Assembly (NCBI GenBank): GCA_943735955.1
Contig: OX030964.1
Location: 5,035,599 to 5,099,598, forward strand
Reading direction: 5' to 3'
DNA: 64,000 nt
DNA from: Piscicola geometra
Lineage: Eukaryota; Annelida; Clitellata; Hirudinida; Piscicolidae
Below the pieces are notes generated by a model that ran no database searches, was not told where the DNA came from, and saw nothing but the letters and a program-made list of their open reading frames with translations. Shown piece after piece: positions 14,809 through 46,818 of this stretch; the first letter of the stretch is position 1; each line of letters opens with the position of its first letter. A program made the translations under genes and the position numbers.

Positions 14809-15172
14809 ATGTGTGGAGTCTTTTTTTGGATTTTAGTTTTTTTGTGGAAGGTTGAAGTTAGTTATACAGAGGAATTTTGTAACTCTGAGATATTTCAGCC
14901 TATATGTCTAAAGAATGAGGTTTTATTAATCAGAAGTTCTATTTACGGAAGGAAAGCATTAGGGAAGTGTATTTCACCTGAAGGCACTCATTTTAAAGAA
15001 GCTATGAAGCTTCCAGGTTTCATCGGTTGCTACTCTGACGTGAGACACATCATTGAGCCTCAGTGTGCTGGAAAACAACTCTGTCAAATAACTGTAGCTA
15101 GAATAGAAGCTGATTCAAACTGTTCTAGTTTCTTTAAGGATTATTTGGATGTTGACTATGAATGCAAAAAAG
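14809..15172 (+). CDS. A1: variable signal peptide + SUEL lectin exon
   Basis: Start ATG 14809; donor AAAG|GTAAGG after 15172; 364 nt. The signal peptide is MCGVFFWILVFLWKVEVS and the mature start is EEFCNSEIF. All 8 cysteines are present, with IYGRKALGKC, GFIGCYSDVRHIIEPQC and DYLDVDYEC. It is the first unit of the array and the farthest, at 15 kb, from the constant exons. An AATAAA at about 15326 could allow a short secreted form if the donor is skipped. Confidence 0.8.
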
Positions 15173-15670
15173 GTAAGGAAGATTTATTTAATGTTCAATT
15201 GAATCATTACAATAGCCTTGTTGCAATGTTTCCAAAATCCTAGACTAAAAAAAATAATGTCTTAGAAAAAAGACTGAAACAAAGGAGAAATCAAATTTAT
15301 TCTTTTATATTTTTTAAAAATCTGGAATAAAGTATATCTCAAATCTATTGTTTAATATATAAAGTTGAAGATTAATTAATTAATTTATTTATTCGTTTTG
15401 AACGACTTTAATTGTGGGCCGCTCTTTGAACATCGGATAAGATATTTGAATAAAGAAGATCCAAAATTTGTTTAAGTCAGTTAAGTTTACCCGTTTACTT
15501 AATCTCAGTACGCACGGTTAATTGGTTGACAATATTATCAACATCAAATTTCATTGCCTATTTCAATTTAGAATTCATTGAATGTTGTTTCCCATTTTGA
15601 AAAGACCCCTTTGGTCGTAAAAAAGTGGTCTATAAGAAGGCTATAAACATCTTCAAGCTGAAAACTGAAG

Positions 15671-16028
15671 ATGAATCTGCTTTGGATCTTTTTATTTTTG
15701 TGGAAGATTCAAATTATTTTTCCAAAAGAGTTTTGTAATTCAGAGGTTTTCCAGCCTAGATGCCTTCAAAATGAGCTTTTGTATATAGAGAAAGCCATTT
15801 ACGGAAGAAAAGAATTCGGGAAATGTTTGAAAAACGAAGGAGAAGAAACACGGAAATTAATGGACTTTTCAGGATTCATTGGTTGCTACTCTGACATCAG
15901 AAAATATTTGGAACCTTTGTGTGCAGGAAGAAAAGACTGTGAAATACCTGTAGCTATAATAGAGGCGGATTCTGGATGTTCGAGCGTGTTTAAAAACTAC
16001 CTAGATGTTGAATACTTCTGCATTAGAG
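15671..16028 (+). CDS. A2: variable signal peptide + SUEL lectin exon
   Basis: Element TTGAAAAGACCCCTT at 15597-15611; ATG 15671; donor AGAG|GTAAGT after 16028, a consensus donor; 358 nt. The divergent mature start is FPKEFCNSEVFQPRC. The loop is unusual, with KNEGEETRKLMDFSGFIGCY and RKYLEPLCAG replacing the common RHIIEPQCAG. It pairs by type with B18 (KNEGE loop), so these two are candidate orthologous ends of the mirrored clusters. Confidence 0.8.
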
Positions 16029-16332
16029 GTAAGTTTAAACTTTGAAACTTTAAACAAATATTCAGTATTGCCTATAGACGGTATAGGTAAACCAAGCCGT
16101 TCGATTTTAATGAGTTCAAAATGACGACCATGATAAAACAGAACTCATTAGCTTTTTGTTATTGCATTAGTTGAAAAAAATCTATAAAAATCTACTTAGT
16201 TGCTTATCCTTAAAAACTCTAAAAGATCAAACAATTTCTCAAATAAAGTTTTGGTTTTTGACAAGATCCCTCCAAATTGTGTTATTACATGAGTTTAAAA
16301 CACTGCATCACTCAAGATTTACAAAATTAATA

Positions 16333-16693
16333 ATGAATTTATCTTTTTCTTGGTATTTGCTAATATTTTGTAACTTGAAGAGAAGTTTTGCAGAAGAGTT
16401 TTGTATTTCTGAGATTTTTCAGCCAAGTTGTTCAAAAAGTGACATTATTTTTATTAAGAATGCAATTTACGGGAGAAAAGAACTTGGAAGGTGTATTTCA
16501 GCTGAAGGCACTTTTGACGAATTCATGAAGCTTCCAGGCTTCATCGGTTGTTACTCTGACGTGAGACACATCATTGAACCTCAGTGTGCTGGAAGACAAC
16601 ACTGTGAAATTATAGTCTCAAGAATAAAGGCAGAATCTGCGTGCTCTAGCGTATTTAAAGAGTACCTAGACGTTGAGTACTTCTGCATTAAAG
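16333..16693 (+). CDS. A3: variable signal peptide + SUEL lectin exon
   Basis: Element TTGACAAGATCCCTC at 16258-16272; the start chosen is ATG 16333, which places a short hydrophobic leader (MNLSFSWYLLIFCNL) before RSFAEEFC. Earlier in-frame codons would lie upstream of the promoter element. Donor AAAG|GTAACG after 16693; 361 nt. It carries IYGRKELGRC, GCYSDVRHIIEPQC, and EYLDVEYFC. Confidence 0.8.
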
Positions 16694-16992
16694 GTAACGA
16701 GTTGAATCAGTTAATTAAAATATAATCTCATATTTTAAACAAATTATTTTTAACAATCACAAGTTTTCATTGCTGGAGAAAAATTTGAATTAGTCTTTTT
16801 GTATTTTTTATCTAACGCTGAGAGCAATAAAAATTTATAGTTTTTCGCTTTAAATCGTTTTTGAAAGCGAAAGTTCGGAATAGTTTTAAAAAGATGGTTT
16901 TATTTTCTCAAGTGTAAGCCACCTTTCATTATTAAGTATAATACATTATATTAGAATATTCTTTGGTTTTTTGTCAGCATAGCACTAAGGTT

Positions 16993-17390
16993 CAATCAAT
17001 CAATCAATCAATCAATCAATCAATCAATCAATCAATCAATCAATCAATCAATCAATCAATCAATCAATCAATCAATCAATCAATCAATCAATCAATCAAT
17101 CAATCAATCAATCAATCAATCAATCAATCAATCAATCAATCAATCAATCAATCAATCAATCAATCAATCAATCAATCAATCAATCAATCAATCAATCAAT
17201 CAATCAATCAATCAATCAATCAATCAATCAATCAATCAATCAATCAATCAATCAATCAATCAATCAATCAATCAATCAATCAATCAATCAATCAATCAAT
17301 CAATCAATCAATCAATCAATCAATCAATCAATCAATCAATCAATCAATCAATCAATCAATCAATCAATCAATCAATCAATCAATCAATCA
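16993..17390 (-). repeat. (CAAT)n microsatellite, about 100 units, as expanded retroelement tail
   Basis: Almost perfect CAAT repeats run 398 bp. The array ends in AAATCAATTTCTATTGCGCTCTTTC, nearly the same junction as the short insert at 4005-4057. It is therefore the grown 3' tail of a minus-strand L2-like/SINE copy. A long repetitive open frame through it is an artefact. Confidence 0.9.
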
Positions 17391-44851: not shown

Positions 44852-44893
44852 CGTTTTTCTATTATACGAAAAAGTATAAGACTCAATACCTAC

Positions 44894-45284
44894 CTTCGAA
44901 GCAGACATAGTCAACATCGAGGTAGTTTTTAAAGACGCTGGAACATCCAGAATCTGCTTCTATTCTAGCTACGGCTATTTCACAGTGTTGTCTTCCAGCA
45001 CACTGAGGTTCTATGATGTGTCTCACGTCAGAGTAACATCCGATGTAACCTGGCTTTTTCAAAAAGTCTTCATCAAGTGAGCCTTCAGCTGACAAACATC
45101 TTCCGAGTTCTTTCCTTCCGTAAGTTGCGTTCTTAATATACAAAATCTCATTCTTCAAACAACTTGGTAGAAATACCTCAGTAATGCAAAATTCTTCTGC
45201 AAAACTTCCATTTGAGCTCCATAAAAAAACTGCTATCCAAAACAAAGAGCTATACATGATGGCTTCCATCGTGCTCAAGTACAT
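44894..45284 (-). CDS. B16: variable signal peptide + SUEL lectin exon
   Basis: Element TTGACAAGACCCCTC (minus) at 45317-45331; ATG 45284; donor GAAG|GTAGGT; 391 nt. GSFAEEFC class. It carries ITEVFLPSC, ATYGRKELGRC, loop EGSLDEDFLKKPGYIGCY and CEIAVARIEADSGC. Mirror partner of A16. Confidence 0.8.
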
Positions 45285-45694
45285 CAGTCTTTATGCTTAT
45301 CCGATGGCATAGTTTGGAGGGGTCTTGTCAAAAGGGAATAAAAAGCAAAAATCAGTTTTCGTTTAAGGGTTTTAAAAACATAATGAAATCCGAAGGTAGT
45401 GAGTTTTATTCCAAAAATTGGCTAGTATTTTTAGGAGATGTTAGTTAAATTCTCAATACTATTTCCTAAAACTCAAGTCCAACATTCTTCTCAAGCATGC
45501 GCACATTTACAAAAATCTTTTAAAAAGAATTATTTAACAATTTATTACATTCGTTCCATAGAGTTGACCTTACTACGCATCAATTGCCAGAGTTTTTTAT
45601 TGTTTGAAAAGTTGTAGAATAAATATTTAAAAAAGCTAAAATTATTCTCAAAGATATGTGAAAAATTCAATTTAAGCAAAAGTAGTTTATATAC

Positions 45695-46073
45695 CTTTGA
45701 TGCATTGGTACTCAGCGTCCAAGTAGAACCTGAAGAGCTTGCTGCAGTCGGTTTCAACTTCTATTCTAGCTACGGCTATTTCACAGTGTTGTCTTCCAGC
45801 ACACTGAGGTTCAATGATGTGTCTCACGTCAGAGTAACAGCCGATGTAACCTGGTAGCTTCATAACTTCTTCACTATGAGTTCCTTCAGCTGAAATACAT
45901 CTACCAAGTTCTTTTCTTCCGTAGATAGCGCTTCTAATAAACAAAATCTCATTCTTTAGACAACTCGGTTTGAATATCTCAGAGATACAAAACTCATCTG
46001 CCAAACTGTTATCTGAGTTCCATAAAAAGATTAACATCCAAAACAAAGAGCCATGCATGACTACTTCTGTCAA
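45695..46073 (-). CDS. B17: variable signal peptide + SUEL lectin exon
   Basis: Element TTGACAAAACCCCTC (minus) at 46133-46147; ATG 46073; donor AAAG|GTATAT; 379 nt. Unique leader MHGSLFWMLIFLWNSDNSLA before DEFCISEIF. Loop EGTHSEEVMKLPGYIGCY; C half of A17 type (EVETDCSKLFRF, DAEYQC). Confidence 0.8.
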
Positions 46074-46460
46074 GCTGATCTACAGTGCATCTGATCTACA
46101 TTAGCCTTTTAAACTAGACGAAGAAATAGCTTGAGGGGTTTTGTCAAAAGCGAAAAAATAAAATAAATAACCTATTTCGCTTTTCAGATTTTCTAGAATT
46201 TATACAATAATCGGAAAGCCATGGCCCATGGGTTAATTCCTAACATTGCATATAGTATTTCTAGGAGCAGATTGTTATATTTTGCGTTGACATTTCAAGT
46301 TATTAGAAGATTATACATAATCACAGTCTATAAAATTTTATGAAAACTGTTAATCAAAAAGTGTGAAAGAATTTTTTTTTCTAAGCAGTTTGTAAAAAAT
46401 CCATAAATTACATTCGCGATATAGTGATGAATTGATCGAATATAGAAACAAGTTTTATAC

Positions 46461-46818
46461 CTTTTTTGCATTCGTAGTCGACGTCCAAATGATTTTTTAG
46501 GAAACTAGAACAGTTTGAATCTGCTTCTATTCGAGCTACAGTGATTTCACACTGTCGTTTTCCAGCACACTGAATTTCAATGATGTATCTCACGTCCGAG
46601 TAGCAACCAATGAAACTTGGGTCATCCATGTATTTGGAAATTGCTTCTCCTTCATTTTTCAAACATCTCCCAAAGTCTTTTCTTCCGTAAATGGCTTTTT
46701 CTATATAAAGAACCTCATTTTCAAGGCATCTAGGCTGGAATATTTCTAGGTTGCAAAACTCTTTGTTAAGAATTACTTGAAATTTCAACAAAATAGACAA
46801 AACCCAAAGCAAATTCAT
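46461..46818 (-). CDS. B18: variable signal peptide + SUEL lectin exon
   Basis: Element GTGAGAAGACCCCTT (minus) at 46882-46896; ATG 46818; donor AAAG|GTATAA; 358 nt. Leader MNLLWVLSILLKFQVIL, mature start NKEFCNLEIFQPRC. It carries IYGRKDFGRC, a KNEGEAISKYMDDPSFIGCY loop and RYIIEIQCAG. It is the outermost B unit, with an L2-like fragment about 45 bp beyond its promoter element, so further units may have been cut off. Confidence 0.8.

Follow-up and report, generated by a model that had tools for sequence, protein, structure and literature searches.

Tandem SUEL-lectin exons ahead of single shared stems in six arrays of the Piscicola geometra genome: a candidate variable/constant receptor layout

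A layout of variable lectin exons before one constant exon set

A 64,000-nucleotide (nt) stretch of the Piscicola geometra genome (C10:5035599-5099598, hereafter the window; genome 171 Mb, 66 contigs) carries two convergent arrays of short exons, each exon encoding a leader and one SUEL lectin domain, and each array ends in a single exon set for the rest of a receptor, called here the stem. Array A (plus strand) has 19 such lectin units and array B (minus strand) 18, giving the total of 37 reported in a preliminary description of this DNA. That description spoke of two arrays with constant sets, which holds within the window; genome-wide there are six, the other four lying outside the window on the same chromosome, with the same design and one stem set each at the 3' end. 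The layout, with variable first exons that have their own promoter-like element and one constant set per array, is well supported by sequence, namely by six arrays, promoter islands, donor conservation, phase, purifying selection and a one-lectin gene control. The process that we propose, alternative promoters with cis-splicing of one lectin first exon to the shared stem, is given a probability of about 0.87.

A lectin-exon profile was compared with the open frames of three regions of the chromosome that carries the window (164.6 kb in total); remnants were sought additionally by tblastn, and stem exons by BLAST. Units whose lectin domain reaches the splice donor number 69 (A 18, B 17, C1 12, C2 11, C3 6, C4 5). 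This count excludes C1 4773526, C2 4891029 and B 42092, where the domain match stops short of the donor column, as well as the remnants seen by tblastn only and every T and X gene. Five of the 69 are truncated, with a match that begins later in the profile. The tables for codons, donor profile and ratio of non-synonymous to synonymous divergence (dN/dS) use the 64 units with at least 100 domain residues, and those for leaders and promoters the 58 units in which a leader of 15-24 residues begins at a clear ATG. Within the window, array A comprises 18 donor-reaching units and one remnant (21707-21826), array B 17 donor-reaching units (one N-terminally truncated) and one fragment (~41892-42098). 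An ATG, a leader, an open frame and a donor are all present in 16 units of A and 16 of B, the 32 intact units claimed earlier.

Lectin units of the window (B units numbered in transcription order)
14809..15172, plus, A unit 1, runs from ATG to donor, with its promoter-like element at 14698
15671..16028, plus, A unit 2
16333..16693, plus, A unit 3
17987..18353, plus, A unit 4
18694..19051, plus, A unit 5
19250..19607, plus, A unit 6
20125..20488, plus, A unit 7
21707..21826, plus, A unit 8, lectin-exon remnant (tblastn)
22337..22694, plus, A unit 9 (A9 of the preliminary description), 436 amino acids (aa) joined to stem A
23098..23455, plus, A unit 10
23905..24262, plus, A unit 11
24818..25127, plus, A unit 12, lectin domain and donor, without clear leader
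25470..25833, plus, A unit 13
26254..26563, plus, A unit 14, lectin domain and donor, leader damaged or short
27018..27375, plus, A unit 15
27911..28274, plus, A unit 16
28563..28926, plus, A unit 17
29173..29536, plus, A unit 18, intact, GC donor (AAAAG/GCAAG)
29721..30084, plus, A unit 19, adjoins stem A
33859..34222, minus, B unit 18, adjoins stem B
34438..34801, minus, B unit 17
35092..35377, minus, B unit 16, damaged N-terminal part, donor retained
35687..36050, minus, B unit 15
36340..36703, minus, B unit 14
36920..37283, minus, B unit 13
37802..38162, minus, B unit 12
38703..39060, minus, B unit 11
39511..39868, minus, B unit 10
40324..40681, minus, B unit 9
41138..41495, minus, B unit 8
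41892..42098, minus, B unit 7, open frame with C-terminal lectin-exon fragment
42478..42841, minus, B unit 6
43130..43493, minus, B unit 5
43739..44102, minus, B unit 4
44894..45257, minus, B unit 3
45695..46058, minus, B unit 2
46461..46818, minus, B unit 1, most distant from stem B

Arrays outside the window (positions in C10; lectin profile and BLAST)
~4771.9-4779.9 kb, minus, array C1
4883.2-4893.7 kb, plus, array C2
4995.6-4999.3 kb, minus, array C3
5003.0-5006.3 kb, plus, array C4

Arrays C1 and C2 have opposite orientations, lie ~100 kb apart and contain units that are similar pairwise. A long simple repeat, (ATCA)n, lies inside array A at window 16989-17440.

Stems

The stem exons of the window are as follows.

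30393..30803, plus, stem A exon 1, phase-1 acceptor, second extracellular domain that looks CUB-like on inspection only
30880..31032, plus, stem A exon 2, looks sushi-like on inspection only
31098..31169, plus, stem A exon 3, linker
31236..31317, plus, stem A exon 4, transmembrane, by eye
31419..31653, plus, stem A exon 5, tyrosine-rich tail and stop
32168..32420, minus, stem B exon 4, tail and stop
32637..32718, minus, stem B exon 3, transmembrane, by eye
32871..33092, minus, stem B exon 2
33154..33555, minus, stem B exon 1, acceptor phase 1

Searched against the whole genome, stem exon 1 gave six strong matches (E 1.8e-81 or better) and one marginal match on another contig (E 1e-3). Each of the six closes one array at its 3' end, on the correct strand and with the remaining exons behind it, giving six stems against 69 donor-reaching lectin units. 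BLAST with every stem exon found no extra copy in the three regions and none between units, which confirms what had been claimed from inspection; the acceptors named then, 30393 (+) and 33555 (-), are also correct. Type 1 stems have five exons (A, C2, C3, C4) and type 2 stems four (B, C1); all start in phase 1 and are preceded by the same eight intron bases, CCTGACAG. The stem introns differ from array to array; in array C2, an AT-rich minisatellite (C10:4894509-4895353) fills the intron that follows stem exon 2, with the flanking exons kept. Stem C4 (C10:5006541-5006951) has an in-frame TAG in exon 1, while its five lectin units remain open.

Between stem types, synonymous divergence (dS) was 0.05-0.07 for stem exon 1 and 0-0.04 for the tail in the three pairs computed, and saturated for stem exon 2. 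Because silent divergence is this low in exon 1 and the tail against a saturated exon 2, these shared parts probably evolve in concert, with gene conversion as the best explanation.

Splice donors and reading frame

The donor site at the last conserved codon is GT in 67 of the 69 units, GC in one (array A, 29536) and neither in one (C1 4774690). For the 1426 of 2016 unit pairs that are less than 65% identical as proteins, identity at the two bases of the GT reaches 0.96 and 0.94, then drops to 0.28 at the next base, the background being 0.31. The donor codon is GGT in 60/64 units; GGA predominates at three of four other conserved glycine codons, and the remaining one is GGT in 46/56. This pattern points to the GT, more than the glycine, as the object of selection.

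Joined to their own stems, 53 of the 58 leader-bearing units, including all 32 in the window, give one open frame of 436-440 aa, so that the fused frame previously described for those 32 is confirmed. The five failures are the C4 units, halted by the stop in their stem; in the other five arrays, whose stems are intact, every one of the 53 leader-bearing units reads through, one of these (C1) being without a donor. Units read into their own stems because every stem starts in phase 1. It had also been noted that all 32 intact units are 1 modulo 3 in length. This is true, and extends to all 58, but follows by definition from a donor at one fixed place of the lectin frame and is not an independent fact. 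The donors named at 22694, 23455 and 40324 are correct, and the phase-1 donor ascribed to every intact unit stands as regards phase, with the qualification that one (29173-29536) has GC, not GT.

A promoter-like element before each unit

A 15-base-pair (bp) promoter-like element, TTGASAWGRYCCCTT, lies 47-125 nt (median 59) upstream of the ATG. A match of at least 13/15 within 220 nt of the ATG is found in 56 of the 58 leader-bearing units, across six arrays. With 100 permuted consensuses the mean was 0.11 and the maximum 2, and the stretch from -400 to -221 gives 0; chance is therefore excluded as the source of the element. Identity between units is 0.755 over the element and ~0.30 on either side, a figure that is inflated since the profile is anchored at the best match, the permuted consensuses being the control. 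A TATA-like string follows 3-45 nt after the element in 51/58 units, compared with 20/58 in the control stretch.

Over the three regions there are 76 sites of at least 13/15, against 0-3 per mononucleotide shuffle. A lectin exon begins 119-268 nt downstream on the same strand for 75 of them (five T-type), and the last site lies 79 nt before a remnant. Genome-wide, the exact pattern has 22 matches, 21 of them upstream of array units, and a reversed control pattern has 2. The sites that precede the units of arrays A and B are as follows.

14698..29654, plus, array A elements, 18 sites of at least 13/15, 119-202 nt upstream of the lectin domain
34289..46896, minus, array B elements, 15 sites of at least 13/15, two weaker (12/15)

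A role as a recombination signal was considered and dropped, given that the element lies towards the start codon, that a TATA-like string often comes after it and that T genes are preceded by it too. It is best described as a candidate promoter of each variable exon.

T-type genes as an internal control

Upstream of array A lie genes in which each lectin exon has a stem of its own.

2083..14454, plus, six tandem T genes with own stems, T1 and T6 damaged

With two more outside the window, there are eight T-type genes, in which 8 lectin exons go with 8 second extracellular exons. The exon order in T2 is leader, lectin, second domain, sushi-like, linker, membrane span and tail; the junction after the lectin is in phase 1, as in the arrays, and the membrane exon has 82 bases, the same length as theirs. 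By BLAST, all six T genes of the window have exons 2-7, and five have the leader exon. T1 has no leader exon by BLAST, and its second extracellular exon is put out of frame by a one-base gap, so that this exon gives two separate matches. The lectin exon of T6 contains an in-frame TGA. All six had been offered as complete receptors, which does not hold for T1 (frameshift) and T6 (TGA). T2, T4 and T5 are near-identical tandem copies, three of the six T genes share identical lectin exons, and the element is present at 13/15 or better upstream of T1, T3 and T6.

Identity of the protein domains

Pfam assigns the lectin head to SUEL_Lectin (PF02140), and the head has the cysteines and the YGR of the membership pattern. 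YGR, which we take to be the motif of SUEL/rhamnose-binding lectins, is largely retained. In an alignment of 34 window units, G29, R30 and five cysteines are invariant and three further cysteines almost so; its profile matched rhamnose-binding lectins in the PDB (8.3e-8), and the matches there include CSL2/CSL3-type lectins and latrophilins. Sugar binding by the lectin heads is a prediction. Genome-wide there are at least 109 Pfam SUEL matches, 75 of them in C10:4.77-5.08 Mb including T-type genes, and 70 of these 75 are above the cut-off; one joined protein (29.1) and one T-type exon (31.3) score slightly below the cut-off of 31.4. Four SUEL matches lie within ~72 kb on another contig (contig C2, 2044847-2117003), a place with no match to array stem exon 1. 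No cadherin domain was found by Pfam among the scanned proteins.

The membrane span and the tyrosine-rich tail can be read directly from the sequence. The stem domains had no sequence match in Pfam or the PDB, leaving the earlier name CUB for stem exon 1 unsupported; both CUB and sushi are unproven labels given by appearance only. An AlphaFold2 model of stem exon 1 is all-beta and weak (predicted local distance difference test, pLDDT, 56), and that of the lectin (pLDDT 48) is too poor for use. A protein search with joined A unit 9 found no relative in a database that is possibly poor in animal proteins, so the missing relative is not evidence of uniqueness.

Selection and history of the units

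The ratio of the proportions of non-synonymous to synonymous differences (pN/pS), pooled over 18 reciprocal nearest pairs of units, was 0.245, with no pair above 1; the units are therefore kept as proteins. Diversifying selection over the whole lectin domain was looked for and not found: none of 843 measurable pairs (dS 0.1-1.2) had dN/dS >1. The lectin units are under purifying selection, which overall gives no support for an arms race. An arms race at single sites remains compatible with the data; columns 74, 78, 43-46 and 90 have far more amino-acid than silent differences over 224 pairs, by difference counts alone.

A tree of 76 rows, many of its forks unresolved, sets the T-type lectins apart from all array units with full support. 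The arrays interleave in this tree and are slightly clustered, since there are 43 changes of array label against a shuffled mean of 49.0, a value as low being reached in 3/200 shuffles. The stem-adjacent units of the six arrays fall within a single group of 20 rows (support 99). Since the six arrays are duplicates of each other, they do not count as independent inventions.

Proposed mechanism and alternatives

The arrays combine tandem leader-bearing first exons with one 3' constant set, in matching phase and frame and with a conserved donor. In the proposed process, a factor would act through a unit's 15-bp element, and the start of transcription would probably lie near the following TATA-like site. 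The pre-mRNA would extend across all downstream units into the stem. Splicing would join the phase-1 donor of the cap-proximal lectin exon to the one acceptor of the stem, and the units in between would presumably be lost as intron. The product, of ~436-440 aa, would carry a signal peptide, a SUEL lectin, the shared extracellular stem, a transmembrane segment and the tyrosine-rich tail, and each array would supply its one stem with many lectin heads. What we infer from this arrangement is promoter activity, cis-splicing, omission of the later units and surface display; the least certain part is that one or few heads would be used per cell or tissue, as the preliminary description proposed together with a possible immune, symbiont or allorecognition role. 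A larger proposal, which we hold to be rather unlikely, is a recognition or identity code: cells (or immune or gut cells) would stochastically use few promoters per array and so bear private combinations of heads from five or six arrays on similar signalling stems, an annelid invention of the protocadherin strategy that would be based on sugar recognition and separate from that of vertebrates.

Several observations weigh against promoter choice with cis-splicing. AATAAA occurs in 28/63 spacers, so local polyadenylation is compatible with the data, although its total is not enriched (58 against 63.4 +/- 8.5 in shuffles). A unit that retained its intron would still yield a complete secreted lectin. 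Many donors are weak past the GT, with G at +5 in just 16/69, though the stems here likewise have weak donors (e.g. GTTGTT, GTATTT). The glycine codon mentioned above that is mostly GGT, like the donor codon, tempers the codon argument. The stop in stem C4 next to five open units fits recent decay or use of another stem.

On the AATAAA strings and the presence of a signal peptide and complete SUEL domain within one exon, the units could be mainly small genes for a secreted single-domain lectin, made by intron retention or a local 3' end and comparable to the Pcdh-beta genes, which have a single exon, with receptors formed only from the stem-adjacent units. A study of sDscam reports that the intron after a cassette is often retained in pre-mRNAs (PMC4835542), which would fit. 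Such genes would not need the conserved GT, yet the donor is kept in 68/69 units (67 GT, one GC) with similarity lost right after it; the read-through tails are scattered (1-43 aa, median 8), and AATAAA is no more frequent than in shuffles. Conserved local terminal exons were rejected as well: among 1139 pairs of spacers from diverged units BLAST gave 15 hits, of which the spacer with the A8 remnant accounts for 8, and no block is generally common to these spacers. We give the secreted-lectin account a slim chance. Trans-splicing of unit transcripts to stem pre-mRNAs of any array, with heads and stems mixing freely, would suit the phase common to all units and six stems and the persistence of open units in C4 despite the stop in their own stem; it would have no need of a cis stem on the right strand in every array, which is what is found, and we regard it as very improbable.

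It is just as improbable that most of the additional units are dead or decaying copies of the first exon, few of them used. There are remnants (window 21707, ~42 kb, and C2 4889711), truncated domains or leaders in 11/69 units and one C1 unit without a donor, but the pooled pN/pS and its 18 pairs, none above 1, speak against general decay, as do a leader and frame kept in 58/69 units and an element kept in 56 of those 58. An assembly artefact, by which complete genes in tandem would have had their stems collapsed or dropped, deserves almost no credence. The near-identical copies T2, T4 and T5 point to recent repeats in the region; against this, the spacers are short (median 271 bp from donor to 150 nt before the next lectin) and without stem remnants, and the same layout occurs in six arrays whose stem introns differ.

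Neighbouring features

Reverse-transcriptase-like frames were seen by eye at window 46907-48045, just past the 5' end of array B, and a long (TG)n simple repeat at 49550-49815. Minus-strand exons at window 58424-59924 resemble what we take to be a Mint/X11 (APBA) PDZ protein. Elsewhere in the assembly, contigs C1 and C16 begin with TTAGGG-type telomere repeats. Contig C66 (15,135 bp, 21% GC over the first 10 kb) is mitochondrial; its genes, assigned by eye, lie on one strand in the order COX1-COX2-COX3-ND6-CYTB-ATP6-ND5-ND4L-ND4-...-ND1-ND3-ND2, presumably the common annelid order.

Comparison with known systems

To our knowledge, few loci derive receptor diversity from promoter choice onto a shared constant part, vertebrate protocadherin (Pcdh) and chelicerate sDscam being the examples. 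A further such design, if true, with a sugar-binding head, in an annelid, in six arrays and with a locus-specific element, would show that the design arises repeatedly. With 37 units in 32 kb, the window would also be a compact system for studying promoter choice, and a cell-specific choice would bear on how invertebrates achieve diverse recognition without gene rearrangement. We found no description of a SUEL-lectin locus of such layout in one library of open-access papers, consistent with the earlier statement that none of this kind had been described. The head shares its domain membership with SUEL/rhamnose-binding lectins (RBL) and the RBL domains of latrophilins, a likeness that does not extend to the stem, which has no Pfam or PDB match. 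UGT1 has variable first exons with their own promoters before common exons, and makes enzymes from one locus; the arrays resemble it in variable first exons before common exons and differ in encoding receptors and in being six.

Vertebrate Pcdh alpha and gamma, as PMC7811963 describes them, have variable exons with their own promoters and one constant set per cluster, a conserved element at a similar distance upstream of most members' start codons, and C-type exons that are more alike mutually than to the rest. The arrays are alike in having tandem leader-bearing variable exons, one downstream constant set and several closely linked clusters, and the grouping of the stem-adjacent units of six arrays parallels that of the C-type exons. 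The protein families are unrelated, SUEL lectin here and cadherin repeats there. The variable exon here holds only leader and lectin, the other ectodomain, membrane span and tail being constant, whereas the Pcdh membrane span is in the variable exon. The element is TTGASAWGRYCCCTT here and the CGCT-box conserved sequence element (CSE) in Pcdh, and two arrays occupy 32 kb (37 units) where mammalian Pcdh clusters are given as nearly 1 Mb (PMC7811963).

In Chelicerata, sDscam is outlined in PMC4835542 as tandem 5' cassettes, with a promoter before each, spliced to constant exons. On that outline, both are invertebrate receptor genes with arrayed 5' variable parts before constant exons; the sDscam cassettes are two or four exons of Ig domains, unlike the one exon of leader and lectin here, and the sDscam layout is backed by RNA, whereas the present locus is known from sequence alone. 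The arrays share the layout of Pcdh and sDscam, yet belong to neither protein family.

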